DNA of 64,000 bases from Pseudoxanthomonas sp. F37 (GTDB taxonomy: Bacteria > Pseudomonadota > Gammaproteobacteria > Xanthomonadales > Xanthomonadaceae): NCBI RefSeq assembly GCF_022965755.1, contig NZ_CP095187.1:1054001-1118000 (forward strand), given 5' to 3'. Positions 24,388 through 40,084 of the stretch are shown one piece after another; position 1 is the first letter of the stretch; the number at the start of each line of letters is the position of its first letter. The notes beneath the pieces are model-generated. The model ran no database searches and was not told where the DNA came from. It saw nothing but the letters and a program-made list of their open reading frames with translations. The position numbers and the translations under genes are program-made.

Positions 24388-26034
24388 TCAGTACACGTCG
24401 CGGCGATAGCGCCCGGCAATCCGCAGATCCTCGACCTTGTCCTGGCCCAGGATGCGCCGCAGCGTGGCGTCCACGTCGGGCGCCATGCCGGCCAGGCTCC
24501 CGCAGACGTAGACCGCGGCGCCTTCTTCGACCCACTGCCGCAGCCGGTCCGCATGCGCCTGCAGGGCATGCTGGACGTAGCGCTGGGCGCTGCCATCGCG
24601 CGAGAAGGTCAGGTCGAGATGTGGCAGTACGCCTCGCGCCTGCCATGCCGCCAGCTCGTCGGCGAAGAAGACGTCGTGCGCGCGCTGGCGCTCGCCGAAC
24701 AGCAGCCAGTTGCGTGTTGCGCCGGCCAGCGCCCGCGCCTTCAGGTGGGCGCGCAGGCCCGCCAGGCCCGTGCCGTTGCCGATCAGGATCATCGGCACGT
24801 CGTTAGCGGGCGGATGGAAATTCGGATTGCGGCGGATGCGCAGGGCGATGGCGTCCCCCGGTTGCGCATGCCGGCACAGCCAACCACTGCCCAGGCCGGC
24901 GGTACCGTCCTGGTGGTGCATCAGGCGCACGAGCAGATGCAGCGCGCCATCGCCGGGAAGGGAGGCGATGGAGTATTCGCGGTGCGGTAGGGGCGTGCAG
25001 GCGTCGGCAAGCGCCTGCGCGCCGCCGCGCCAGAGCGCATGGTCCGCGACGGGCCACTGGCTGCGGGCAAGCATCTGCGCCAGCGGTTGCGACTGGCCCT
25101 GCCACTGCACGCGGACGTCGCCCGCCAGGCCGGTACGCTGCAGGACGTCATCGACCTCGGCCATGACGCGGCACGGTCCGATCTCGGCGATGTCGCCGGC
25201 GATCCAATCGGGCAGCGGACCGGATCCGGGTGTCAGGGACAGGTGGAATACGGGGCCGCCGATGCTGCCGGGATTCAGCTCGACGCGATCGCGCAGTCGC
25301 CAGGATTCATAGCGTGGCGTGGCCCAGTCCTGCGCGCCGCGACCGTCGCCCAACTGGCCGATATGGTGCTGCCAGTGGCGCAGGGCGCTGTCGTCGGCGT
25401 TGTCGACTTCCACCAGGTCGAACAGCGGTTGAGCTCCCTGGCGCCGCAGCCAGTCATCGAGCTGGTGACCGAAAGCGCAGAACTGCGCGTACTCGCGGTC
25501 GCCCAGGGCCAGCACCGCGTAGCGCAGCTTCTGCAGCACGAGCATCTGCGACATCACGTGGCGCACGAAGCCGAGCGCTGGATCGGGTGGATCGCCTTCG
25601 CCGGTGGTGCTGACCACGAAGACGGCTCGCTCGATGGCCTGCAATTGCGCCGCATCCAACCGCTCCAGCCCCGCGCGCTGGACGGCAACGCCGCCCTGGC
25701 GAAGCGAGGCGGCAGTCATGTCGGCCAGCTCCATCGCGAAACCGGTCTGACTGGCATGCACGACCCACACCGCGTCTTGTCCGGCGTGCATCACCGCGTG
25801 TCCCGCCCTGTCGCGTGTGCGTGCGCGGTACAGGCAACCCGCCACCAGTCCGGCGTATGCCACCACGGCTGCGACGGCGATGCAGACGCGGTCCCTGGAC
25901 GGGCTGGCCTGCCAGCCGTCGCCCTCGTGCAATCCGGCGAACAGCCAGGCGCTGGCGGCCAGCACCAGCATCACCAACGCGTTGCCCATGAAGGCGGGGT
26001 TCCAGCGCTGCCGTGGGGAGCCTGATGTGCTCAT
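24388..26034 (-). CDS. Membrane-anchored flavodoxin/ferredoxin-reductase (CysJ/P450-reductase-like)
   Basis: A 548-residue diflavin reductase. Two N-terminal membrane helices (about 15-36 and 50-69) hold a cytoplasmic flavodoxin domain (about 88-230; HASQTGFAMELADM for FMN phosphate, STTGEGDPPDPALGF, LGDREYAQFCAFGHQLDDW). A FAD domain follows (REYSIASLP with the RxYS motif, GWLCRHAQPGDAI), then a NADPH domain (LIGNGTGLAGLRAHL, LLFGERQRAHDVFF, VYVCGSLAGMAPDVDATLRRIL). Electrons should pass NADPH to FAD to FMN. It overlaps apbE by four bases at the end of the PepSY-DUF2271-DUF4198-ApbE operon, so I infer that it feeds electrons into the PepSY membrane protein. Classical CysJ is soluble and lies in cys operons, unlike this. 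Confidence 0.9.
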   Translation of the reverse strand: MSTSGSPRQRWNPAFMGNALVMLVLAASAWLFAGLHEGDGWQASPSRDRVCIAVAAVVAYAGLVAGCLYRARTRDRAGHAVMHAGQDAVWVVHASQTGFAMELADMTAASLRQGGVAVQRAGLERLDAAQLQAIERAVFVVSTTGEGDPPDPALGFVRHVMSQMLVLQKLRYAVLALGDREYAQFCAFGHQLDDWLRRQGAQPLFDLVEVDNADDSALRHWQHHIGQLGDGRGAQDWATPRYESWRLRDRVELNPGSIGGPVFHLSLTPGSGPLPDWIAGDIAEIGPCRVMAEVDDVLQRTGLAGDVRVQWQGQSQPLAQMLARSQWPVADHALWRGGAQALADACTPLPHREYSIASLPGDGALHLLVRLMHHQDGTAGLGSGWLCRHAQPGDAIALRIRRNPNFHPPANDVPMILIGNGTGLAGLRAHLKARALAGATRNWLLFGERQRAHDVFFADELAAWQARGVLPHLDLTFSRDGSAQRYVQHALQAHADRLRQWVEEGAAVYVCGSLAGMAPDVDATLRRILGQDKVEDLRIAGRYRRDVY

Positions 26035-27023
26035 GCCGCCAGGTACTGCGCGAAGGCAGGCGTCATCGTTTCGCGCATCGCTTCCCCGGTGCGTTGCAGG
26101 AACCTCGCCGCGATGCCATGACGCGTCGCGAACGCATGGCCCTTCTCCGCTCCCATGACGGTCAGGGCGGTGGCCCAGGCATCGGCGTGCATCGCCTCCG
26201 GGGCGACCACGGTCACGGCGGCGGCCGCATCGGTCACCGGCTCGCCGCTGCGCGGATCGATCGTGTGCGAGTAGCGGCGCCCATCCAGCGCATACGCGTG
26301 CCAGCGGTCGCCCGAGGTGGCGACGGCGACACGGTCCAGCAGCAGTACGCGCGGCTCCAGCCCCTCGCTGTCGGCTTCCTCCTCCGGCGAGGACTCCACC
26401 AGTACACGCCATGGCTGTCCGTCGGCCTTGCGACCGTAGCCATACAGTTCGCCGCCCACTTCGACCAGGCCGGCGCCGATGCCGCGACTTCGCAGCAGGG
26501 CGGCCACCACGTCCACGCCGTAGCCCTTGGCGATGGCCGAAAGGTCCAGCATCACGCCTCCGGGCTGGCGGACGCGGCGCTGCGCCGGATCGAACCGCAG
26601 ATGCTGCCAGCCGATGCGGGAGCGGGCTTCGACCAGCGCCGCGGGGGTGGGACGACCCCGCCCGCGCGCATGCGCACCGAACCCCCATGCCGCCACCAGC
26701 GGCGACACGGTGGGGTCGAACGCGCCATCACTGCGTGCCGCGATGTCGAGCGCCGCCGTGAGCACCTGCAGCAGGTCGTCCCGCAGGACGAACCATTCGC
26801 CTGCGGCGCAGCGGTTGAAACGCATGATGTCCGCATCCGCCTCCCACGTGCTCATCTGCGCGACCACCTGGTCCAGGCGCGCCTGGATGGCGTCATGCAG
26901 GGCATGCGGATCGATGCTCGCCGGGCCGGCGTACTGGACGGACCAGGTGGTGCCCATGGTCTGCCCGTGCAGCGCATGCACGGGCGCCGCCGGCGCAGAG
27001 GGGGAGGGAGGGGTGATGTTCAT
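26031..27023 (-). CDS. apbE: FAD:protein FMN transferase ApbE
   Basis: Transfers FMN from FAD to a threonine or serine of target proteins. The 330-residue product (ATG at 27023; another in-frame start lies at 27044) shows MGTTWSVQ, DGAFDPTVSPLVAAWGFG, GGVMLDLSAIAKGYGVD, GLVEVGGELYGYG, HTIDPRSGEPV and the Mg2+-site MHADAWATALTVMG. The motifs are complete, so it should be active. Oddly, there is no signal peptide or lipobox at either start (MNITPPSPSAPAAPVHALHG), although the family is usually periplasmic and its likely target here (DUF2271) is exported. It lies between DUF4198 and the diflavin reductase. Confidence 0.95.
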   Translation of the reverse strand: MNITPPSPSAPAAPVHALHGQTMGTTWSVQYAGPASIDPHALHDAIQARLDQVVAQMSTWEADADIMRFNRCAAGEWFVLRDDLLQVLTAALDIAARSDGAFDPTVSPLVAAWGFGAHARGRGRPTPAALVEARSRIGWQHLRFDPAQRRVRQPGGVMLDLSAIAKGYGVDVVAALLRSRGIGAGLVEVGGELYGYGRKADGQPWRVLVESSPEEEADSEGLEPRVLLLDRVAVATSGDRWHAYALDGRRYSHTIDPRSGEPVTDAAAAVTVVAPEAMHADAWATALTVMGAEKGHAFATRHGIAARFLQRTGEAMRETMTPAFAQYLAA

Positions 27024-27068
27024 GCCGATGCATGCCGCCGGCACCGCGTCCGGCGGCGGCGTGCCGAT

Positions 27069-27881
27069 TTACTGGGGCAGCACTTCCAGCGTGGCGACAT
27101 AGCTGAGGCGGCGCTGGGTGGCCTGCGGCACGGTGGTCTTGTCGTCCTGGGTACCGGTTTCCAGCCAGTACATGCCGGCTTCTGGCCAGGTGACGCTGAA
27201 CTCGCCCTGGGCGTCCGTGGTGACCTTGATCTCGTCCTGCGCGTTGCGATAGCGCGTGCCGCCGCGGGTGATCTCGAATTCCAGGCCGGCCGCCGGCTTG
27301 CCGTCGACCAGCATCCGGAAGGTGGCCGCTTCACCTGCGAACAGGTCGTTCGGGTGCGTCACCGGCACCAGTTCGATGCCTTCCCCCACGCTCTTCAGCG
27401 CGGTGTCGTTCGGCGCGCCATTGGTCACGAAGGTCTCGATGCGGCCGATCGACTGCGACACCTGCAGGTTCTTCGCATCCTTCGGCACCTTGGTGGCCAG
27501 GTCTTCCGGCTTGGCGCCGCGCAGGCCGCCCGGCTTGCCGTCGGCGCCCTCCCAGCGGACCATCAGGCCCTTGTTGACCGTGGCGATACGGTAGGTGCCC
27601 TGCTGTTTCAGCTCCACGTCGAACACCGTGCGGTACTTGCCCGTGGCCAGGTTCTGCGCCTGGACCGTGCTGCCGTCCGGCGCGGTGATGGCCAGGCCTT
27701 CGGTGCGCAGCGGCACATGGTTGAAGTAGAACAGGTCGTTGGACACCGCCGCATCCACCGTGATCCACGGATCGGCGCCGGCGATGACGGTCTGCGAGGG
27801 CTGCAGCCACGCCTTGTGCGCCAGCGCGGTGGCGGGGATGGCGCAGGCCAGGGCGATGGCTACGGCAAGGGAACGCTTCAT
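27069..27881 (-). CDS. DUF4198 periplasmic protein
   Basis: A 270-residue exported protein with a signal peptide ([18 protein letters not shown]). The mature protein begins [19 protein letters not shown], the DUF4198 opening, in which the first mature residue is histidine. The beta-sandwich domain resembles carboxypeptidase-regulatory/NikM-like domains ([39 protein letters not shown]). An N-terminal His after cleavage is a hallmark of metal-binding proteins such as copper amine-terminal (histidine-brace) folds, so a periplasmic metal-binding role is possible. It is co-transcribed with DUF2271 and apbE. Confidence 0.9.
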
Positions 27882-27912
27882 CGGAATCTCCAGCGGGAAA
27901 GGTGGAAGAGGA

Positions 27913-28443
27913 TCAGGGCTTGACGGTCAGCGCGACGGCGCCCAGTTCGGTGGCGCCCTGCGCCTTGCCCGACTGCGGCGCGCCTTTCGCGGGCCAGGTG
28001 AAGGGGATTTTCAGCAGCTCGCGGCCGCCGACTTCGCGTGCGGCTTCGACGACCAGCGTGTACTGGCCGGGAGCCAGCCCGGCCAGGTGCTGCTTGTCGC
28101 TGAAGCTCAACGCATGCCTGCCAGCCGGCTTGGTGGGCCCCGTCACTCCGTCCACCGGCACCTTCAGCGAGCGGCCGGACTTGCGCCACCACTGGCGCAG
28201 GTCGGGCAGCCATTTGGTGCCGTGGCCTTCGGAATTGCGGGTCTGCTGGTACCAGACGGAAAGGTTGGCGGCGACCTTCTGGTCGGCGCCTTCGATCCAG
28301 ACGGCGACGTAAGGACGGTGGTACTCGGCCACGTTGAGCTTGGGAATCTCGACATTGACATCCAGCGTGGCGGCGTAGGCCGGCGTGGCCAGCAGGCCGC
28401 TGAGCGCGATGGTCAGCGTGGTGTGGACGGCGATCTTCGACAT
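27913..28443 (-). CDS. DUF2271 periplasmic protein, candidate FMN-carrying ApbE substrate
   Basis: A 176-residue exported protein with a signal peptide ([20 protein letters not shown], cleaved near AYAA) and a DUF2271 beta-sandwich domain ([60 protein letters not shown]). Residues 98-104 read DGVTGPT, close to the D-x-x-[ST]-G-A-[ST] pattern at which ApbE attaches FMN, with Thr104 as the acceptor (Pro replaces the usual Ala). The adjacent apbE makes a covalent flavin plausible. I infer that it is the periplasmic electron carrier of this operon; FMN attachment itself cannot be seen from DNA. Confidence 0.9.
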
Positions 28444-28472
28444 GCGGTCACTCGCGGGTTCGTTGAACAGGG

Positions 28473-29108
28473 TCAGTGGATGAAGAGCAGTGCGATCAGC
28501 AGCGGCACCAGCAGGCCCAGGCCGACCATCGGCCAGGTCATGCGGCGTTGCCGGTCGTGCAGGTAGAGCAGGAACAGGCCGGTGATGCAGAACACCAGGC
28601 AGGCCACGGCGAAGATGTCCAGGAACCATCCCCACGCCGGCCCGGCGTTGCGGCCCTTGTGCAGGTCGTTGAAATAGGAGATCCAGCCGCGGTCCGTCCT
28701 TTCGTACTCCACCGCGCCGGTTTCGCGATCGATGCTCAGCCATGCGTCGGTGCCGGGGCCCGGCATGGAGAGATAGAGCTCCATGTCCGACCATTCGGCC
28801 GGTCGCCGGCCGATGGGTATCGAAAGCGCCTGCTCGAGCCAGTGGCTGACGGAAGCAGGCAAGGGCGCGTTGCCCTGCCGGCGGTCACCGAGCGTGGCCA
28901 GGACGGAGGCGGGCATCGTGGCCGTGACGCGGGTGGTGTCGGGGTCGGCTTCAATCTTCGAAGCGTGGTTCAGCGTGATCCCGGTGACCGCGAACAGCAG
29001 CATGCCGATCAGGCACACCGCCGAGCTGATCCAGTGCCACTGGTGCAGCGTGCGCAGCCAGAAGCCGCGGCGTTGCTGTTGCAGGGCGGGGGAGGCGGAT
29101 GGGGACAA
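28473..29108 (-). CDS. PepSY-associated membrane protein of the iron-reduction operon (TTG start)
   Basis: A 211-residue membrane protein. Helix 1 is at about 25-46 ([20 protein letters not shown]), a periplasmic PepSY-type region lies at about 50-155 ([32 protein letters not shown]), helix 2 is at about 160-182 ([20 protein letters not shown]) and helix 3 is at about 191-210. Histidines at 22, 25, 48, 150 and 184 lie at membrane borders and could bind heme, as in PepSY/PiuB-type ferric-siderophore reductases. The only usable start is TTG at 29108; the nearby ATG at 29143 is out of frame. A Fur-like site lies 46 bp upstream. It leads the operon into DUF2271, DUF4198, apbE and the diflavin reductase. 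Confidence 0.88.
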
Positions 29109-29154
29109 CGGCGTCTCGAAGGCAGGGGGCGCAGGCGGGCCATTACAGCACAGA

Positions 29155-29169
29155 TGAGAATGCCTCTCA
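29155..29169 (-). promoter_or_regulatory. Fur-box-like site ahead of the PepSY operon
   Basis: TGAGAATGCCTCTCA is an inverted repeat (TGAGA-N5-TCTCA) resembling the TGAGAAT half-sites of Fur boxes. It lies between the end of the upstream receptor gene and the PepSY start, at a promoter position for the PepSY-to-reductase operon. Confidence 0.55.
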
Positions 29170-29216
29170 ATTGCAGGGGGTTCCCCTTCCCGCGGGAAGG
29201 GGAACGTCCCAGGGCC

Positions 29217-31584
29217 TCAGAAGTTGACGTTGAGGCTCAACCACAGGTTCCGCGACTTGTCCTTGTTGTTGTAGTCGTCGAGGTAGCTGGGCGCGTACGC
29301 GCCGCTGGCATCCTGCGTCCAGATGGTCTGGAACGTGGTGAAGTCCTCGTCCAGCAGGTTGTTGATGCGGCCGGAGAGCGAGACGTGCTCGTTGAACCGG
29401 TACTGCGCGCCCAGGTGCAGGACGGTGTAGTCCCGGTAGTCGCGGCGCACGCCGTCGATGACGTCGCGATAGCGCTTCGAGCGCGCTTCCGCCAGCAGCT
29501 GCAGGCTGAAGTTCTCCGTCGCCTGCCAGTCGAGGCTCGTGTTCGCCATGTGCCTGGCGGTATTGGTCAGCGGCAGGCCCTGCTGGGCGCCGCTCAGCTG
29601 TTCGCTGTCGGTATAGGTGTAGTTGCCGCGCAGCGACTAGCGTCCGGGTGATGCCCCAACGACCGGCGACCTCCACGCCCTGGATGCGCACTTCATCGAT
29701 GTTGATGTTCTGCGCATACGTGGTGTAGCCCAGTTGCGCGTAGTCGCCCAGGTTCGCGCAGGGGTGCACGCCACCGGTCTGCTCGCAGCTCAGGCTGGTT
29801 TCGCCGCGCGCGATCTTGTCGTCGAAGTCGTTGCGGAACACCGTGAGGTTGAAGGTGTGCGCGTCGTCGGCCGAGGTCCAGTAGACCGCGATCTCGCTGT
29901 TGACGCTGGTCTCGGGCTGCAGGTCCGGGTTGCCGACGAAGGGCGTGGTGCCCTGGCCGCCGAAGCCGGTGATGCCGTCGTACAGGTCCGTGGTCTTGGG
30001 CGTCTTGAAGCCGGTGCTGACGCCGCCCTTCAGCGTCCACGCTCCGTCGATGTCCCACACGGCATAGGCGCGCGGACTGAGTTGGCTGCCGAACACGCGG
30101 TGATCGTTGTGGCGCAGGCCCAGGGTGATGGTCAGTGCATCGAGCGGATTCCAGTTGTCCTCCGCGAACAGCGACCACATCCTGTGTTCCTGCACGGTGC
30201 CACCGCCGTCGCCGCCGCCTTCCATGCCGAACACGCCATCTTCCAGTTCACCGTCGATCAGCTGGCCGCCGACGACGAAGCGGTGCGCCTGGCCGATGGC
30301 GAAATCCAGTTTGGCGTCCAGCGTGTACTGGCGGCTTTCCATGGTGCGCTTCGGTCGCGGAAGGAAGGCGTCCATGGCCAGCTGCTGGCGCTGGGCACGC
30401 GTCAGTCCGGCATAGGGGCCGGTGGCGCAGGTAGCGGCGTTGCTGCAGTAGAGGTCCTGGTGCAGCAGTCGCTCGGCGACGGTGAACGGCAGCGTGCGGC
30501 CGTGGTTGCCGGTATCGATGTGCGCCAGCGAGACGAAGCTGTCGCCGAAGGCCCACTGGCCGTTGTGGGTGACCGACCACTGGTCGCGGGTGAATTCCTG
30601 GTCGGCCGCGTATCCCACCCGTGGCGCCGCGCGCCAGATGCCGTCCAGTCCGTCCACGGTGCCCAGCGGATACGTTTCGGTGCCCAGGTTGTTGATGTAC
30701 GGCGTGTTGTCGTACACCTGCCTGGACGTGTCGTAGTCGAAGACCACGCTCTGGTTGTCCGCCGGCGTCCAGCTCAGGGTCAGGCCCGCGCTCGTGTTGG
30801 TGTTGTCCACGGTCTTGCCGCCGCCGCCGAAGCCCAACGCGCGTTCGAACACGGTGCCGTCCGGCGCGGTGATCGCTTCGTATTCGGGCGTCGAAGCGTC
30901 GCGCTCGTACCGCGAACCACGCACGCCCAGGCCCAGGCGATCCCTCACCAGCGGCCCCATCAACATGAAGTCGAAGGTGCTGTCGCTGCCGAAATCGCTG
31001 TTCTCCTGGATGCCGTGGCCGAGCGTGGCCGAGCCCTGCCAGCGGTCCGACACCTTGCGCGTGATGATGTTGATCACGCCGCCCAGCGCGTCGGCGCCGT
31101 ACAGGGTGGACGCCGGCCCGCGGATCACTTCGATGCGCTGGATCATGTCCAGCGGCGGAACATGGTTGAACTGGTTTCCGCCGAACGAGTTGGGGTAGAT
31201 GTCGCCGTGGTTGTTCTGGCGCTTGCCGTCTATGAGGATCAGCGTGTAGTCCGGACCCATGCCGCGGATGCTGATGGTCTTCTGGCCGGTCTTGTCCGAG
31301 GTTTCGCCGACGTCCACGCCTTCCAGGTCGCGCACGGCGTCGATCAGGGTGAGGTAGGGGCGCTGGCGCAGCTCCTCCGCGGCGATCACGCTGATGCTGG
31401 CGGGCGCGTCGGTGATCTTCTGCTCGAAGCCGGAGGCGGTGACGACGACGGTGTCGAGGGTGCTGGCGTCGGCGGCATCGGGCAGGGGGATTGCGATGGC
31501 GGGAGCGGCGGCGATGGACAGCAGGGCAAGGGCAAGGCGGTTGCGGCGCAGCGAGGCGCGCACGGACGTACGGATGACGTTCAT
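29217..31584 (-). pseudogene. TonB-dependent outer-membrane receptor 1, single-base frameshift
   Basis: A receptor of about 788 residues split by a frameshift. The N-terminal frame has a signal peptide, a TonB-box-like LDTVVVTAS, a plug domain (SISVIAAEELRQRPYLTLID, ADALGGVINIITRK) and most of the beta barrel. After GRWGITRTL near 29640 the frame is lost. The next frame carries on with RGNYTYTDSEQLSGA through INNLLDEDFTTFQTIW to the terminal aromatic residue (LWLSLNVNF). One extra base at 29637-29640 (CTAG on the minus strand where CTG is expected) explains the break. It resembles FepA/CirA-type ferric-siderophore receptors. It could be a real inactivating insertion or a sequencing error. It sits upstream of the PepSY reductase operon. 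Confidence 0.85.
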
Positions 31585-32189: not shown

Positions 32190-32204
32190 TGAGAATACTT
32201 ATCA
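32190..32204 (-). promoter_or_regulatory. Fur-box-like site ahead of small ORF and receptor 1
   Basis: The plus strand reads TGAGAAT-A-CTTATCA, a 7-1-7 inverted repeat close to the Fur consensus TGATAAT-N-ATTATCA. It stands in the gap between the end of piuC and the unit with the small membrane ORF and TonB receptor 1, and probably represses that unit when iron is plentiful. Confidence 0.75.
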
Positions 32205-32237: not shown

Positions 32238-32924
32238 TCAGGTCTCCGCCCACTGCCTGAGGAGGTTGTGGTACACGCCGGTCAGCTGGACCAGGGCGGC
32301 ATGCTCGGGCACGTCCGCTGTCAGGCGGCGGATGGACAGGTCGAGTTCGAACATCAGCCGGCGGCGACCGTCGTCGCGCACCATGCTCTGCATCCAGAAG
32401 AACGACGCCACGCGCGCGCCGCGGGTCACCGGCGTCACCTTGTGCAGGCTGGTGCCCGGATACAGGACCATGTGGCCGGCGGGCAGCTTCACGCGCTGCG
32501 TGCCGAAGGTGTCCTCGATGACGAGTTCGCCGCCGTCGTAGTCTTCCGGCGCGCTCAGGAACAGCGTGGCGGACAGGTCCGTGCGGATGGGGTCCACGCC
32601 GCCGCGGCTGCGGTCGTAGCGGACTGCGTTGTCCACGTGGTAGCCGAACGACTGGCCCCCGCCGTAGCGGTTGAACAGCGGCGGATAGATGCGCTTGGGC
32701 AGCGCCGCGGAGAAAAAGGTGCTGTTGCGCGACAGTGCGTCCAGGATCAGTGCGCCGACGTCACGGGCCGCGGGCGAATCTTCCGGCAGTTGGGCATTGT
32801 CCTTGGCCTTGGCCGACTGGTAGCCCGCGGTGATGCGCCCGTCCGCCCAGTCGGCGGCGTCGAGAAGCGCGCGTGCCTGCGCGACCTGTTCCGGCGTCAA
32901 CACCTCGGGGATGGCGAGCAGCAT
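32238..32924 (-). CDS. piuC: Fe(II)/2-oxoglutarate-dependent hydroxylase PiuC (PKHD type)
   Basis: A 228-residue iron- and 2-oxoglutarate-dependent dioxygenase found next to siderophore receptors. The iron triad is complete: His96 and Asp98 in GYHVDNA and His161 in GTSLHKV, with Arg171 ([10 protein letters not shown]) for the 2-oxoglutarate carboxylate. Other family segments are [20 protein letters not shown] and [14 protein letters not shown]. It lies 65 bp downstream of receptor 2, the same pairing as piuA-piuC in pseudomonads and fiu-ybiX in enterics, and is presumably Fur-controlled with it. Its substrate is not established. Confidence 0.95.
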
Positions 32925-32944
32925 GGTCGATGACCTCGAATGGA

Positions 32945-32975
32945 GCACCCTGCCCATTGTGCATGGGCAGGGTGC
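32945..32975 (-). other. 13-bp perfect hairpin between receptor 2 and piuC
   Basis: GCACCCTGCCCAT and its exact reverse complement flank a five-base loop (TGTGC). There is no T-run. It may trim transcription from the receptor gene into piuC or stabilise the receptor mRNA end. Confidence 0.6.
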
Positions 32976-32989
32976 CGGCGGTGCCTGCC

Positions 32990-35322
32990 TCAGAAGCGGA
33001 ACGTGGCCGTCAGCACCGCCGAGCGGCCTTCGCCGGGATTGGCCCAGCCGTTGCCGGCGGTGACTGCGCCTGCGGCATCGACGGTCAGGTTGTTGCGGAT
33101 GCCGGTGTAGTACTCCTCGTCGAACAGGTTGCTGACGTTGAGCTGCAGGCCGATCCGCTGGCTGATCCGGTAACCGACCATGGCGCGATGGACCCAGTAG
33201 GCGTCCGTCTTCCGGTACACGGCCTCGTTCGTGTTGTTCGGATAGAACGAACCCTGGTAGGTCGCGCCGTAGCCGAAGGTCCAGTCGCCCAGTGCGTAGG
33301 TGGTCCACAGGCTGGCCGCGTGGCGCGGCGTCTGGGTCAGTTCGCGGCCCTTGACCGGGTCGCTCGCGGCTTCGTCTGCCGCGTTCTGCAGCACTTCGCT
33401 GTCCAGGAAGGTGTAGTTGGCGAACACCGCCCACTCGCGGGTGATGTTGCCGGCCACGCCCAGCGCGACGCCATCCACGCGGGCCTTGCCGTCGAGCACC
33501 TGCTCCGGCTCCGCCGGATCGGCGCTGGCCACCTTGTAGTTCTGGCGCTCGTTGCGGAACAGCGCCGCGGTCAAGGCCAGGCGGTTCTCCAGCACGTCCC
33601 ACTTGGCGCCCAGCTCGATGTTGACGGCGGTCTCGGGATCCACGTTGCAGGTGTTGGCGTTGCAGGCGCCGTTGACCGATGTCTTCGACGGTGTCCTGCT
33701 GTTGGCGTAGGACAGGTAGACGCTCGCATTGTCCATCGGCTTGTAGACCAGGCCGGCGCGGTACGAGAACAGGTCGTCTTCGTTCTCGAAGCGGTTGCTC
33801 ACCCCGGTGATCCGGCCATCGGTCACGCCATAGGTGACCGTGTCGCCCTCGTTGTGTTCGTAACGCGCACCCAGGTTCAACAGCCAGCGTTCGCCGAACT
33901 TCAACGTGTCGAACACATACAGGGCCTGGTTCTCCAGGCTGCCCTCGGTGCGGCCGGTGCGGACGAAGTTCCTCGGGCCCGTCCAGACGTTGTAGGGGTT
34001 GTCCAGGTCCTGCAGCGGATAGTTGGCGTTGTTGTTGGCGAGTTCGCTGCCGTCCGCATTGCGGAAGCCGGAGCCGCTGTCGAGTTCGAAATCCTCCTTG
34101 CTGAACGACACGCCGACGACGACATCGTGGCCTACCCTGCCGGTATCGAAGCCGATCGTCAGGTCCGTCTGGCTGTGCGCGATGAAGTTCTCGGTATCGC
34201 GGACGAGGCCGCGCGGGCCGCCGGTCGGGGACCAGGTGCCGGGTGGCTGGACGGTGCCGGCGGGGACGCCCGGACCGGCCGGCAGGGTTGCGCAGGCCCC
34301 CCCGTGTAGGGATTGGTGCCGTTCGCCAGGCACCATGTGCCCTGCAGTGCGGTGGCGTTGGTGTACTGCTCCACGCGCTGCAGGCGCGCGAGGCTGCGCA
34401 GGCCGACGCGGTCGCCGAAGTCCATCTCCAGCACGCCGGTCAGCATGTCCACGTCGCTTTCCTGGCGCGAGGTGTTGCGGTAGCCGAAATAGGTTTCGCG
34501 ATCCACGCCGGGCAAGGGGCCGTCGTTGGACGGGCTGAGCGCAAAGGGCACGCCATACTGCGGCATGTTGTTGTCGTGCTGGTGCAGGTAGCTCAGGGTG
34601 AAGCGGGTGTCCGAACCCAGGCCGAACGCGATGGAGGGCGCGAAGCCCCAGCGGTGCTTGAACTCCTCGTCGCGGCCCGGGACGTCCTGGGTGTGTCCCA
34701 TGGCGTTCAGGCGCACGGCGACGCCGTTCTCGAAGTCGAAGTTGCTGTCGGCGGTCACCCGGCCGTAGTTGTCGGTGCCTGCGCCGACGGTGAACGTGCT
34801 GAAGTCGCCTTCGCGCGCGGCCTTGCTGACCAGGTTGATGGTGCCGCCGACCGAACCGGCACCGGACATGGCCGAGTTGGCGCCGTTGACCAGTTCGATC
34901 GATTCCAGGTTGAAGGTGTCGCTGCGCGTGTACTGCGCGCTGTCGCGCACGCCATCGGTGGTGATGTCGCTGCTGGCGGTGAACCCGCGCAGGTTGATGC
35001 TGTCGCCGTAGCCGCCGCCGCCTTCGCCCGCGCCGAAGGTGATGCCGGGCAGCGTGCTCAGCACGTCCTTCAGGCCCAGCAGGTTCTGCTGCGCCATGAC
35101 CTCGCTCGTCACCACGGTGATGGTCTGCGGCGTGTCGACCAGGGCCTCGGTGTACTTGGGCGAACTGGCCTTCCGCACGCGCTCACCGTGCACTTCCACG
35201 GTGTCCAGTTCCTTGGCCTGCATGGCGGCGTCGGCGGGGGCATCGCCGACCGGCGCCGCAAGTGCGGGGGTGGCGATCGTCATCAGCAGGGCGGTGGCGA
35301 GCGGGGAAGGGCGAAGGTTCAT
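32990..35322 (-). pseudogene. TonB-dependent siderophore receptor 2 (Fiu/PiuA-like), frameshift in a G7 tract
   Basis: A receptor of about 777 residues in two frames. The first frame (start 35322, GAGG ribosome-binding site) has a signal peptide, a TonB box-like ELDTVEVHGER and a plug domain (DTPQTITVVTSEVMAQQNLL, GITFGAGEGGGGYGDSINLR). It also covers the first barrel strands up to [11 protein letters not shown]. The second frame continues from [10 protein letters not shown] to the terminal LTATFRF. The break falls in a run of seven Gs (34297-34303, Cs on the plus strand); eight would restore the frame. Together with piuC this is the catecholate-siderophore receptor pair (Fiu/PiuA class). Slippage, inactivation or a homopolymer sequencing error are all possible. 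Confidence 0.85.
34297..34303. repeat. Seven-base homopolymer at the receptor 2 frameshift
   Basis: CCCCCCC on the plus strand (G7 in the receptor sense). The two receptor frames meet exactly here, and adding one G would join them. Confidence 0.9.
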
Positions 35323-35456
35323 GGACATCCTCGGGTGTTTGGATGGACCCGGTGGCGATGGCTGCGGGACTGGAAGGGAAACGGAAGGCATGCGCGCCCT
35401 CTGCGGCATGGGGCGTGCAGGCACGCGCCGCGGCGGGGCGGGTGGCGCGGGGTGCG

Positions 35457-35856: not shown

Positions 35857-35875
35857 GATAATGAGAATGATTTGC
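35857..35875 (-). promoter_or_regulatory. Fur box ahead of small ORF and receptor 2
   Basis: GATAATGAGAATGATTTGC agrees with the 19-bp Fur consensus GATAATGATAATCATTATC at 15 of 19 positions by my count. On the minus strand it overlaps a plausible -10 (TATCCT). It is positioned to control the small ORF, receptor 2 and perhaps piuC. The end of the suf-linked Rieske gene lies 31 bp away. Confidence 0.85.
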
Positions 35876-35905
35876 GGTTACAACAGGAGGGCGCGTGGGC
35901 CGGGC

Positions 35906-36238
35906 TCAGTCCCGGTCGTCCCGGGTCCAGATGCCGCCGTGCTCCAGCCGCACCGGAAACTTGGCCACCGGCGAGTAGGCCGGCGCGCACAGGGCACGGC
36001 CGTCGCGGACATCGAAGCGCGCCCCGTGCAGGACGCATTCGATGCTGGCGTCCGCCGGATCGAAGTGGCCGGAGGACAGTTCGAAGTCCTCATGGCTGCA
36101 CTTGTCTTCCAGGGCGTACAACTCGCCGTCGTGGTTGACGACCACGATGGGCGTGCCGGTGACCTCGTCGAAGACGGTCTTCATTTCCCCGGGCAGCAGC
36201 TCACCGGTGGCGCAGACGAACGTCCAGGCCTCGCTCAT
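35906..36238 (-). CDS. Rieske-type [2Fe-2S] ferredoxin
   Basis: A 110-residue non-heme ferredoxin of the Rieske class. The cluster ligands are Cys-x-His in DKCSHEDFELS and Cys-x-x-His in ECVLHGARFD. The C-terminal DVRDGRALCAPAYSPVAKFP is the typical closing strand. It matches the small ferredoxin components of dioxygenases, but here it is the last gene of the suf run (four-base overlap with the GNAT gene), so it probably acts as an electron donor or a cluster recipient for Fe-S assembly. The Fur box of the neighbouring iron island begins 31 bp beyond its stop. Confidence 0.92.
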   Translation of the reverse strand: MSEAWTFVCATGELLPGEMKTVFDEVTGTPIVVVNHDGELYALEDKCSHEDFELSSGHFDPADASIECVLHGARFDVRDGRALCAPAYSPVAKFPVRLEHGGIWTRDDRD

Positions 36239-36774
36239 GCGGTCGCTCCTGCCAGCGGCTTTTCCAGCACCTCGAAACGCAGGTCGTCGCGCCTGGGGAT
36301 GCCGTAGCGCTCGTCGCCATAGGGGAAAGGCTTCTTGATGCCGGTGCGTGTGTAGCCGCGGCGCTCGTAGAACGCGATCAGTTCGTCGCGCAGGTCGATC
36401 ACGGTCATGCGCATGACCGGCAGCCGCCACTCCTCGCCGGCGATGCGTTCGGCTTCGGCGAGCACGGCCTTGCCCACGCCGCCGCCCTGCAGATCGGGGC
36501 GTACAGAGAACATGCCGAAGTAGCCCGCGCCCTCTTCCTCGGCCACGTGCGCGCATGCCAGCAGGACGCCGGCGCGCTCGGCGACCACGATGCGGCTGCG
36601 CCCGCGGTCGATGTCGCGCGCCAGCACATCGGGGTCGATGCGCTGGCCGTCCAGCATGTCGGCTTCGGTCGTCCAGCCCTGCCGGCTGACGTCGCCGCGG
36701 TAGGCGGAAGTGACCAGGGCGACCAGGGCCGGGATGTCGGCGTGGGTGGCGCGGCGGAAGCTGAGGGTATCCAT
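36235..36774 (-). CDS. GNAT family N-acetyltransferase
   Basis: A 179-residue acetyltransferase of the GNAT fold, with an acetyl-CoA loop of the Q/RxxGxG/A type in FSVRPDLQGGGVGKAVLAEA (about residues 95-114) and the family C-terminal strand FYERRGYTRTGIKKPFPYGD. It lies between sufS and the Rieske gene; the gap to sufS (39 bp) contains a small hairpin at 36794-36811. A role in Fe-S assembly is not indicated by the sequence. A start at 36783 is also possible. Confidence 0.88.
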   Translation of the reverse strand: MDTLSFRRATHADIPALVALVTSAYRGDVSRQGWTTEADMLDGQRIDPDVLARDIDRGRSRIVVAERAGVLLACAHVAEEEGAGYFGMFSVRPDLQGGGVGKAVLAEAERIAGEEWRLPVMRMTVIDLRDELIAFYERRGYTRTGIKKPFPYGDERYGIPRRDDLRFEVLEKPLAGATA

Positions 36775-36813: not shown

Positions 36814-38061
36814 TCAGGCCAGCAGGGTGCGCGCCTTCTTCAGGGCCGCGACGAAGGCGTCCACTTCCTCATGCGTGTTGTAGAACGCGAACGAGGCCCG
36901 CAGCGTGGCGGCGACGCCGTAGAACTGCAGCAGCGGGTGCGCGCAGTGCTGGCCGGAACGCACGGCGACGCCTTGCAGGTCCAGCAGCGTGGCAAGGTCG
37001 TGCGCATGCGCGCCGTCGATCAGGAACGAGATCACCGCCGCCTTCTCGGGCGCGCGGCCGACGATGCGCAGGCCGTCGATCCGGTCCAGTTCCTCGGTGG
37101 CATGCGCCAGCAGTTCGGCTTCGCGGGCTTCCACGTGCGCCATGCCCACGGCGTCCAGGTAGTCCACCGCCGCGCCCAGCCCGATGAAGCCGGCGATGTT
37201 GGGCGTGCCGGCCTCGAACTTGTGCGGCGGGTCGTTGAACACGGTGCCGTCGAAACTGACTTCCTTGATCATCTCGCCGCCGCCGATGAAGGGCGGCATG
37301 GCCTGCAGGTGTTCCCTGCGTGCCCACAGCGCACCGGTGCCGGTGGGGCCGCACATCTTGTGGCCGGTGAACGCATAGAAGTCGCACCCGATGGCGGCGA
37401 TGTCGACCGCGCGGTGCGGCACCGCCTGCGAGCCGTCCACCACGGTGACGATGCCGCGCTTGCGGGCCTCGCGGCAGATCTCGCGCACCGGGTTGACCGT
37501 GCCCAGCACGTTGGAGGTATGGGTGATGGCCAGCAGCTTCACCTCGCCGGTCATCGCGGCGTGCAGCGCGTCCAGGTCGAGCGTGCCGTCGGCGTGGATC
37601 TCCGCCACCCGGATCGTCGCGCCGGTACGCTGGGCCACCAGCTGCCATGGCACGATGTTGGCGTGGTGCTCCATGCGGGACACCAGGATGATGTCGCCCG
37701 CCTTCAGGCGGGGCAGCGCCCACGAGTACGCCACCAGGTTGATCGCGAACGTGGTGCCGCTGCACAGCACCAGCTCATCGGCGCGCACGTTGAGGAAGCG
37801 CGCCAGCTTCCTGCGCGCGCCCTCGTACGCGTCCGTCGCCTCGGTGCCCAGCGTGTGCACGGCGCGGCTGACGTTGGCGTTGTGCAGGCGGTAGAAGTCA
37901 TCGACCGCCTGGATCACCGATGCCGGCTTCTGGCCTGTATTGGCGCTGTCCAGATAGATCAGCGGCTTGCCGTTCACCTGCCGCGCCAGCAGCGGGAAGT
38001 CTCCGCGCACGCGCGCCCAGTCGACGGAGGTGCCGGCGCCAGGCAGGGCTTCGCGGTTCAT
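36814..38061 (-). CDS. sufS: Cysteine desulfurase SufS
   Basis: PLP enzyme that takes sulfur from cysteine for Fe-S cluster assembly. The 415-residue product has the PLP lysine in FTGHKMCGPTG, the catalytic cysteine in VAVRSGQHCAHPL and the group II opening IYLDSANTGQKP (family usually IYLDNAATSQKP). It overlaps sufD by four bases. No sufE or sufU partner gene lies in the window, so the sulfur acceptor must be encoded elsewhere or be absent. Confidence 0.96.
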   Translation of the reverse strand: MNREALPGAGTSVDWARVRGDFPLLARQVNGKPLIYLDSANTGQKPASVIQAVDDFYRLHNANVSRAVHTLGTEATDAYEGARRKLARFLNVRADELVLCSGTTFAINLVAYSWALPRLKAGDIILVSRMEHHANIVPWQLVAQRTGATIRVAEIHADGTLDLDALHAAMTGEVKLLAITHTSNVLGTVNPVREICREARKRGIVTVVDGSQAVPHRAVDIAAIGCDFYAFTGHKMCGPTGTGALWARREHLQAMPPFIGGGEMIKEVSFDGTVFNDPPHKFEAGTPNIAGFIGLGAAVDYLDAVGMAHVEAREAELLAHATEELDRIDGLRIVGRAPEKAAVISFLIDGAHAHDLATLLDLQGVAVRSGQHCAHPLLQFYGVAATLRASFAFYNTHEEVDAFVAALKKARTLLA

Positions 38062-39319
38062 GGCGCCTCCAGCGCCGCCAGCGCGGCGTCCACCCGGGCG
38101 AGCAGCGCCTCGCGCACGCCGGCATGCGCGATGACGCCCAGCGGTTCGCGGCAGAATGCGGCGGTCAGCAGCTGCCGGGCTTCGGCCTGGGTCAACCCGC
38201 GCGAGCGCAGGTAGAACAGGGCGTTGGCGTCGAGCTGCCCGACCGTGGCGCCATGGGCGGCCTTCACTTCGTCGGCGTGGATCTCCAGCACGGGCTGGGT
38301 GTCGATCTCGGCGTTGTCCGACAGCAGCAGGTTCTTGTTGGACAGTGCGGCGTCGGTGCCATCCGCGCCCTCGCGGATCAGGATGCCGCCATGGAAGACC
38401 GCGCGCGCGCGGCCCGCGCCGAGCCCGCGCCAGGTCAGTCCGCAGGCGGTGTCGCGGCCGATGTGGTCGATGCCCAGCCGGGTATCGATGTGCCGGCGGC
38501 CACCGGCCAGCAGCACGCCGTTCGCCGTCAGGCGCGCGTTGTCGCCCTCCAGGCGAACGTTGAGTTCGTGGCGCGACAGCGCGGCCCCCAGTTCCAGGTC
38601 GACGCGCCGGTAGTCGGCATCGCGCGCCAGCACCGCATCGGTACGCAGCAGCGAGGTTGCGCGCTCGCCCTCGGCCTGGACGCGTGCGTGCGACAGGGTC
38701 GCGCCCTTGGCCAGGTGCACGTGGCTCAGGGCATTGATGAAGTGCGCGTGCGGCGTGGCGGCGAAGTGATGCTCCACCACCGTCAGCGCGGCGCCTGCCC
38801 GCAGCTCGATCAGATTGCGCAGGTGCCAGGCACGGTCGGCGCCGTCCTCGGTGCCGATGAACACCAGGTGCAACGGCTGTTCGCTGCGCACGTCGGCCTC
38901 GGCGCGCAGCAGCAGGCCTTCGGTCGCCAGTGCGGCGTTGAGCCGGGCGAAGACCTCGTCGGAGCGCTCGAAGCGGCGCTGCAGGAAGCGCGCCGCATCG
39001 CCGCCCTCGGCCAGCGCCTCGGACAGCAACTGCAGGCTGACGCCATCGGGCAGGTCGGTGGTCAGCGACAGCGCCACCGAGTAGCGCCCGTTGACGAAGA
39101 CCGCGCGCGGCGCCGGGATATCGGCCAGCAGCAACGGGTCCAGCGACGGCAGCGCGTCGACGGCAGCGAAGCTGCGGCGCTCCAGCTGCCGCAGCGAGGT
39201 GTACTTCCACGCCTCGGTACGCGGGCCGGGCAGGCCGTCGCGCAGCGCTTCGTCCAGCACGCTGCGGCGGGCGGCGTCGCCATGGAAAGTGGCCGACAGG
39301 GAATCCAGCAACGCGCTCA

Positions 39320-39320
<1 letters not shown>
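38058..39320 (-). CDS. sufD: Fe-S cluster scaffold protein SufD
   Basis: A 420-residue component of the SufBC2D complex. The C-terminal core segments HADEVKAAHGATVGQLDANA and LFYLRSRGLTQAEARQLL are the SufB/SufD family signature, and the N-terminus contains RTEAWKYTSLR. The start at 39320 overlaps the sufC stop by one base; the longer frame to 39359 would run through the end of sufC. The order sufB-sufC-sufD-sufS is standard. Confidence 0.95.

Positions 39321-40084
<764 letters not shown>

Follow-up and report, generated by a model that had tools for sequence, protein, structure and literature searches.

In which compartment does an exported flavoprotein receive its flavin when the enzyme that would attach it has no signal peptide? 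The question is raised by a five-gene operon in a stretch of 64,000 nucleotides from Pseudoxanthomonas sp. F37 (assembly GCF_022965755.1, contig NZ_CP095187.1, positions 1,054,001 to 1,118,000), called here the window. On the minus strand and in this order, the operon encodes a PepSY_TM_like_2 protein, a DUF2271 protein, a DUF4198 protein, an ApbE flavin adenine dinucleotide (FAD):protein flavin mononucleotide (FMN) transferase and a CysJ-like diflavin reductase (Table 1). An earlier interpretation made from the letters alone (the sequence-only reading) had placed these genes in one run, and profile searches confirmed all five families at their positions. The new part is a clade of ApbE enzymes without signal peptide, while the remainder of the operon is largely of a known kind. 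Taken as a whole, a Fur-controlled PepSY electron relay with a DUF2271 protein flavinylated in the cytoplasm is a reasonably likely explanation of the locus.

The window ApbE starts at GTG 27044 or ATG 27023, its domain begins soon after the start, and no hydrophobic leader, transmembrane helix or signal segment was found; the signal peptide and lipobox of the classical periplasmic lipoprotein ApbEs are both missing. The protein scores 272.7 bits with PF02424 against a cut-off of 25.6, and S244, H260 and D288 are conserved in at least 97% of 104 sequences, these residues being equated with V. cholerae S241, H257 and D285 by a constant offset of +3 and not by explicit alignment. The missing signal peptide had been overlooked in the sequence-only reading, and because of it a periplasmic reaction cannot be taken for granted.

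Related loci were collected in two sets. Searches with six peptides taken from the window DUF2271 gave 119 confirmed loci, of which the best 80 make up the named Xanthomonadaceae set. The diverse loci come from a draw over the phylum, in which 68 matches exceeded the cut-off, 61 lay outside the window's family and 60 were used, the second match of genome G419 being left out. Leaders were read over at most 60 residues in the Xanthomonadaceae and over at most 120 residues, or to a stop codon, in the diverse set.

A first leader measure took the best 11-residue hydropathy within 45 residues before the ApbE domain, with a threshold of 1.6. It stayed below the threshold in 77 of the 78 anchored Xanthomonadaceae ApbEs (the exception, L095, scored 1.81) and, in the diverse set, passed it in 6 of 34 anchored ApbEs (11 of these 34 belong to a second cluster type described below). 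DUF4198, as positive control, reached at least 1.6 in 76/77 and 24/24 cases. The second measure scored the same hydropathy from potential start codons lying no more than 120 residues upstream, with thresholds of 2.0 and 1.6; no start codon allowed a scorable leader in six Xanthomonadaceae and four diverse loci. None of 77 Xanthomonadaceae ApbEs reached 2.0 and one reached 1.6, whereas the controls gave 17/18 for lipoprotein ApbEs and 78/79 and 37/41 for DUF4198. Among 36 diverse ApbEs, two reached 2.0 (L123 and L154) and six reached 1.6. Inspection by eye of these 36 found no signal in 33, a lipoprotein in L123 and ambiguous cases in L121 and L154. Six later loci had not been used in forming the idea; an operon ApbE, signal-less in each case, was found by profile in two of them (L201 and L206) and in none of the remaining four. 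Overall, 35 of 38 diverse operon ApbEs are without signal, with one lipoprotein and two ambiguous. A longer N-terminus with a hidden signal was considered and rejected, since upstream reading to 120 residues leaves only the L123 lipoprotein and the two ambiguous sequences.

DUF2271 has a leader of the Sec (general secretory) type, as has DUF4198. In the 102 loci with both genes, the median hydropathy was 0.78 for ApbE and 2.1 for DUF2271. Export of DUF2271 by the twin-arginine (Tat) pathway was rejected, since a loose RR pattern was found in only 1 of 124 leaders (L108) and the printed leaders of the diverse set are Sec-like. Outside the Xanthomonadaceae, many signal-less ApbEs share an RVLIP-like motif (RVAIP, RILIP, HVLIP, HVALP) about 20-35 residues before the domain, as observed in L113, L114, L124, L126, L127, L132, L133, L135, L139-L141, L143, L144, L146, L149, L150, L152 and L153.

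The sequence-only reading had proposed DUF2271 as a likely carrier of covalent FMN on the strength of D98-G-V-T-G-P-T104. The motif is present, and D98 and T104 are conserved in at least 97% of 125 DUF2271 sequences. Among 123 readable motifs (L033-L157, with L155 excluded from the count), the last residue is Thr in 122 and Ser in one (L136). The reading had also suggested looking for orthologues in apbE-linked operons that lose the Thr, and no such case was found, with Thr retained in 25/25 diverse loci with an operon apbE and in 80/80 named Xanthomonadaceae loci. The uniformity of the named loci is partly built in, because the search peptides included KVPVDGVT, which stops short of the Pro before the Thr. 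In the second cluster type (L160-L172), Ser replaces Thr in all the loci where the motif was printed, 8 of 13. There, a divergent DUF2271 reads D-G-x-[T/S]-G-A-S in these 8/13 loci, a long reductase-containing protein is encoded, and the ApbE is without signal peptide in 11/13 loci.

Thr and Asp of the window motif agree with expectation, and the Pro at -1 departs from the published consensus [S/T]GA[S/T] (PMC8238504). This Pro occurs in 80/80 named Xanthomonadaceae loci and in 7/43 diverse loci, the latter comprising 7/25 with an operon apbE and 0/18 without (two-sided Fisher p of 0.03, over rows that share ancestry). Ala stood at -1 in 9 of the 112 loci then collected (two from the window's own genome). 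From the conserved motif, DUF2271 can with good confidence be predicted to carry covalent FMN on Thr104.

Genomes whose DUF2271 locus is without apbE were searched as a contrast, and an ApbE was present elsewhere in 18/18. These 18 have a profile-recognized DUF2271; L167 and L168, with a divergent DUF2271, and L202, L203 and L205 were left out. The best ApbE of each genome, the only one judged (ten further ApbEs, L191-L200, were present), has a hydrophobic leader ending in Cys, as in lipoproteins, in 18/18 cases by eye, and a pattern check agreed in 17/18. In an unrooted tree of 61 ApbEs, a single branch with support of 100/98 splits the 43 operon-linked enzymes from the 18 lipoproteins, and the signal label changes twice, compared with 16.4 times in shuffles. 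An earlier quick tree of 73 rows likewise gave two changes. Both trees label L121 as signal-less; the second excludes the fusions and L154, and the Xanthomonadaceae contribute 14 ApbEs to the first and seven to the second. Grouping the signal-less rows together without L123 was not rejected (approximately unbiased test, p-AU 0.34). On this unrooted tree, the simplest history would be one loss of the signal and one regain in the L123 line.

The window's genome encodes one ApbE and one DUF2271, and a search of it for FMN_bind, NqrB/RnfD and DUF3570 found none, so that DUF2271 is the sole recognized ApbE substrate there. In the genus, 34 of 38 genomes have DUF2271, each with an ApbE within about 2 kb, and three have neither; the two genes are thus jointly present or absent in 37/38. 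A single ApbE is found in 27 of the 34 genomes with DUF2271 and two in the other seven. Of the seven second copies, two are near an FMN_bind gene and five (G139, G230, G284, G695 and G699) are fused in one frame with a second DUF2271, in products of 532-578 amino acids. If the ApbE leaders of these genomes match the ones in the named loci, most members of the genus would have the signal-less enzyme as their sole flavin transferase, with DUF2271 as its sole recognized substrate.

Most of the surrounding biology is documented, so the chain is less open than the sequence-only reading held in stating that it has no settled biochemistry. A PepSY-like flavinylation cluster is defined as a PF03929 or PF16357 gene with ApbE, FMN_bind, DUF3570 or DUF2271, at least one of them with a signal peptide; here a PF16357 gene is clustered with ApbE and a DUF2271 that has a leader. 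Meheust et al. 2021 reported 3220 such clusters, 2833 with DUF2271 and 1500 with DUF4198, showed that the Amantichitinum ursilacus DUF2271 is flavinylated by its ApbE and that a Thr-to-Ala change abolishes this, and described Fur repression of such clusters in Shewanella and Caulobacter (PMC8238504). The window operon shares with them PepSY_TM/PF16357, DUF2271, DUF4198, ApbE and the link to iron; it differs in its separate membrane-anchored diflavin reductase and in its signal-less ApbE, a point that the consulted part of that text does not discuss. The A. ursilacus DUF2271 likewise has an acceptor Thr, a cognate ApbE and a motif of the [S/T]GA[S/T] type, but the consensus has Ala at -1 where the window has Pro, and both partners were signal-peptide-truncated there. 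Among the closest known systems is Caulobacter crescentus CC3059-3063 (CCNA_03155-03159), whose five products match in the same order; Fur targets this operon directly, and iron limitation induces it (PMC3751524). Its mutants are less fit in ethylenediaminetetraacetic acid (EDTA) (PMC11870441, PMC12004947). In Alteromonas, DUF2271/DUF4198 pairs are iron-induced, and DUF2271 is fused to pfam16357 or, elsewhere, to COG1477 (PMC7190382). This kind of operon is already published, and DUF2271 flavinylation at Thr and Fur control have been shown in other species. COG1477 in the Alteromonas fusion is presumably the ApbE family. FoxB and HiuB are PepSY transmembrane ferri-siderophore reductases in which two heme sites are proposed to pass electrons to a periplasmic ferri-siderophore; they resemble the window protein in being PepSY transmembrane proteins, and no flavinylated partner is described for them in the consulted parts (PMC12424826, PMC11334425). 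For a signal-less ApbE clade with an exported substrate, no description was found in the consulted parts of open-licence full texts.

The transmembrane electron path of the sequence-only reading is supported as an inference from families and layout, and a relay serving iron is very likely. NADPH (reduced nicotinamide adenine dinucleotide phosphate) would reduce the membrane-anchored diflavin reductase in the cytoplasm, and electrons would cross via PepSY hemes to FMN held covalently on Thr104 of the periplasmic DUF2271. The reduced FMN would free Fe(II) from imported ferric siderophores, and DUF4198 would bind metal in the periplasm. Electron-flow direction, heme ligation and the iron substrate are what we infer from family knowledge. 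The operon's own ApbE would attach the FMN. Since DUF2271 has a Sec-type leader and this enzyme, like nearly all of the operon-linked ApbEs compared with it, is made with no signal peptide, the cytoplasm is the likeliest place of attachment, on the DUF2271 precursor, and the flavinylated precursor would then be exported by Sec. Cytoplasmic flavinylation before export, a compartment read from the leaders, has about even odds, and passage of the flavinylated adduct through Sec would be a further step of it. That such a modification is chemically feasible follows from two reports: signal-truncated DUF2271 was flavinylated in E. coli by signal-truncated ApbE (PMC8238504), and a seven-residue motif is enough for ApbE (PMC12052999). 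Slightly short of even, and put forward tentatively, is the more general proposal that an ApbE clade lost its signal peptide, stays dedicated to a Sec-exported DUF2271, loads FMN in the FAD-rich cytoplasm and accepts Pro before the Thr. Extracytosolic flavinylation is usually described as periplasmic and in need of FAD outside the cytoplasm; if the proposal holds, cofactor loading of an extracytosolic flavoprotein would be uncoupled from periplasmic FAD supply. A signal-less clade tied to an exported substrate makes the compartment directly testable in culturable organisms.

Control by iron was read from the region ahead of the operon. The Fur-like site noted in the sequence-only reading is there: TGAGAATGCCTCTCA lies in the interval that separates the first receptor's end from the start of the PepSY gene. 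Three Fur-like sites occur in the window when up to three mismatches are allowed, compared with 0.31 expected, and none of 100 shuffles reached three. The site recurs in relatives, with at least 12/15 Fur letters in 49/111 PepSY upstream regions (the window and 110 loci) and in 0/1110 shuffles; the score was the better of two Fur consensus patterns, and the shuffles preserved mononucleotide content only. A sigma-70 scan of 28900-29400 gave no promoter-like site. Intergenic gaps are 29, 31 and 24 nt (45 nt for the third with the ATG 27023 start of ApbE) and the reductase gene, the last, overlaps apbE by 4 nt, so the five genes likely form one transcription unit. From these sites, the operon is probably Fur-controlled and induced in iron starvation.

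Siderophore receptors are indeed neighbors of the operon, but do not flank it as the sequence-only reading had it: both TonB receptors are upstream of it, separated by a gene for a YbiX-type dioxygenase. With NCBIfam models, the receptors are closest to the CirA/IreA-like and Fiu models, all under the equivalog cut-offs. The dioxygenase, above its model cut-off, corresponds to residues 227-454 of the open reading frame (ORF) 32238-33602. In the 80 named loci, flanks of up to 6 kb matched the dioxygenase in 68, the first receptor in 54 and the second in 47, counts that may include paralogues. In Caulobacter, a pair of this kind (cciT-cciO, CCNA_00028-00027) lies elsewhere in the genome, whereas the window operon adjoins its Fiu-like receptor and YbiX-type dioxygenase. 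The receptor-dioxygenase pair and the PepSY reductase operon thus share one island with Fur-like sites, which joins two locus kinds that both stood out in a Caulobacter EDTA screen.

Table 1. Positions of the operon genes, Fur-like sites and neighboring iron genes in the window.
Feature	Positions	Strand	Details
PepSY_TM_like_2 protein	28473..29108	-	211 aa; PF16357 1.1e-85
DUF2271 periplasmic protein, Sec-type leader	27913..28443	-	176 aa; PF10029 3.1e-50
DUF4198 periplasmic protein	27069..27881	-	270 aa; PF10670 1.3e-59
ApbE FAD:protein FMN transferase, without signal peptide	26031..27044	-	PF02424 4.6e-81
CysJ-like diflavin reductase, membrane-anchored	24388..26034	-	548 aa; Flavodoxin_1 6.7e-25, NAD_binding_1 9.1e-08
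Fur-box-like inverted repeat TGAGAATGCCTCTCA	29155..29169	.	2 mismatches to TGAGAATNATTCTCA
Second Fur-like site	32190..32204		2 mismatches; about 0.6 kb upstream of the CirA-like receptor ORF
Third Fur-like site	35862..35876		3 mismatches; about 0.4 kb upstream of the Fiu-like receptor ORF
CirA/IreA-type TonB receptor	29167..31584	-	frameshifted here; C-terminal barrel in another frame, 29217-29549
YbiX/PiuC-type PKHD Fe(II)-dependent dioxygenase	32238..32924	-	PF18331, PF13640; NF003975 6.8e-110
Fiu-type TonB receptor, two frames	32990..35424	-	32990-34336 and 34159-35424; NF007349 positions 26-345, 367-760

The PepSY protein, with a TTG start in the ORF list, has three transmembrane helices predicted from hydropathy (27-45, 165-183 and 192-210). 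His residues near the helix ends (H22/H25, H48, H150, H184 and H211) are kept in 105-119 of 119 sequences; they are candidate heme ligands in the pattern expected of a heme relay. The reductase has two N-terminal transmembrane segments (15-33 and 50-68) followed by flavodoxin and NAD(P) domains, and it resembles CysJ yet misses the equivalog cut-off of TIGR01931 (241 bits vs 668.15). In DUF4198, the predicted cleavage A21|H22 makes His the mature N-terminus, as the sequence-only reading had noted, and this His is present in 121/121 aligned sequences. Further conserved His residues are H55 (mature His34, 110/121) and H176 (mature His155, 117/121), and DUF4198 likely binds metal in the periplasm, to judge from these residues. 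In a crystal structure of a distant relative from Ideonella, DUF4198 binds Ni2+ via the N-terminal His1 and His18 (PMC12537917). Mature position 18 of the window protein, located by counting residues so that loops may shift it, is Trp, and DUF4198 of the operon type may therefore use a ligand set other than that of the Ideonella protein.

Several points weigh against this explanation of the locus. Signal-peptide calls rest on hydropathy and not on SignalP, and the measure is not clean for DUF2271, whose leaders reach 1.6 in 101/102 loci (exception L133) but 2.0 in only 74/102 and are thus weaker than those of DUF4198. The signal-less clade includes the lipoprotein L123; a TTG 74 residues upstream may give L121 a hydrophobic leader, and a hydrophobic stretch, LLFLPPVLAP, occurs in L154. 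In the genus, the fragmented assembly G693 has an ApbE without DUF2271. The A. ursilacus ApbE was called 'signal peptide-truncated', wording that treats at least one partner of DUF2271 as a secreted protein (PMC8238504), and a review holds periplasmic location essential to classical ApbE function (PMC12052999). No documentation of an FMN adduct passing through SecYEG and no published test of the Pro variant of the motif were found in the consulted parts of open-licence full texts.

Some of these points would fit a signal-less ApbE that reaches the periplasm by an unrecognized route and acts there as the classical enzymes do (PMC12052999); the lipobox of L123 makes periplasmic action compatible with the clade, and the ApbE-DUF2271 fusions L155, L156, L158 and L159 do have a signal peptide. 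We consider this unlikely, since 35/38 diverse operon ApbEs have neither signal nor lipobox, 0/77 Xanthomonadaceae enzymes reach the 2.0 level and the operon has no export gene among its five. It is less probable still that the operon ApbE modifies a cytoplasmic protein and that DUF2271 is not its substrate. Cytoplasmic ApbEs with such substrates do exist, as in Klebsiella pneumoniae, whose ApbE without signal peptide acts on fumarate reductase (PMC12052999); that reductase is soluble and cytoplasmic, whereas the presumed substrate in the window is exported. The window's genome has none of the three substrate families searched, other families being possible, and the association of the two genes in 37/38 genus genomes, the retained Thr of DUF2271 and the presence of another ApbE in 18/18 genomes without an operon apbE all argue for DUF2271 as the substrate.

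With Pro in place of Ala before the Thr, DUF2271 might also have ceased to be flavinylated and serve only as a metal- or siderophore-binding partner. An Ala-to-Val change in the motif of another protein cut flavinylation to about half (PMC12052999), and the consensus has Ala. The Pro is, however, always accompanied by the Thr, in all named Xanthomonadaceae and in the 7/25 diverse loci with an operon apbE, and is absent from the 18 diverse loci without apbE; it is seen without apbE in two Xanthomonadaceae loci, L049 and L067, both short. Loss of flavinylation is thus judged improbable, slightly more so than a cytoplasmic substrate. A service to nickel or cobalt, with DUF4198 as metal carrier, would agree with the Ni2+ site of the Ideonella protein (PMC12537917), but the Trp at mature position 18, the conserved His at 34 and 155, the Fur-like site, the adjacent CirA- and Fiu-like receptors and YbiX, and the response of the Caulobacter operon to iron and Fur (PMC3751524) make it very improbable. 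Cytoplasmic flavinylation within an iron-serving relay remains the preferred reading.

Among solved structures, DUF2271 had no significant match by sequence. For the PepSY protein, the sequence search gave only the kelch-like chain 8pjs_A, as a repeated weak hit considered spurious, and the profile search gave none. The C-terminal part of DUF4198 matched 9mhk/9mhi, entries deposited under the name phosphoribosylglycinamide formyltransferase, at E 0.003 from a single sequence and 8.7e-11 from a profile. The Ni-binding DUF4198 structure 9GCB was recovered neither by sequence nor by profile, and the nickel site was compared by counting residues.

Each receptor is broken into two frames in the window, whereas relatives such as L033 (first receptor) and L042 (second receptor) have a single open frame; sequencing error or decay may account for the splits. 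By DUF2271 identity (97%), Pseudoxanthomonas mexicana DSM 17121 is the closest named genome. A convergent HutD gene sits downstream of the operon. Beside the iron island, positions 35906-36556 encode a Rieske-type protein, a frame of 904 amino acids (36814-39528) contains a class-V aminotransferase domain, and 39320-40084 encode an ATP-binding cassette (ABC) ATPase; together they resemble a SUF iron-sulfur region.

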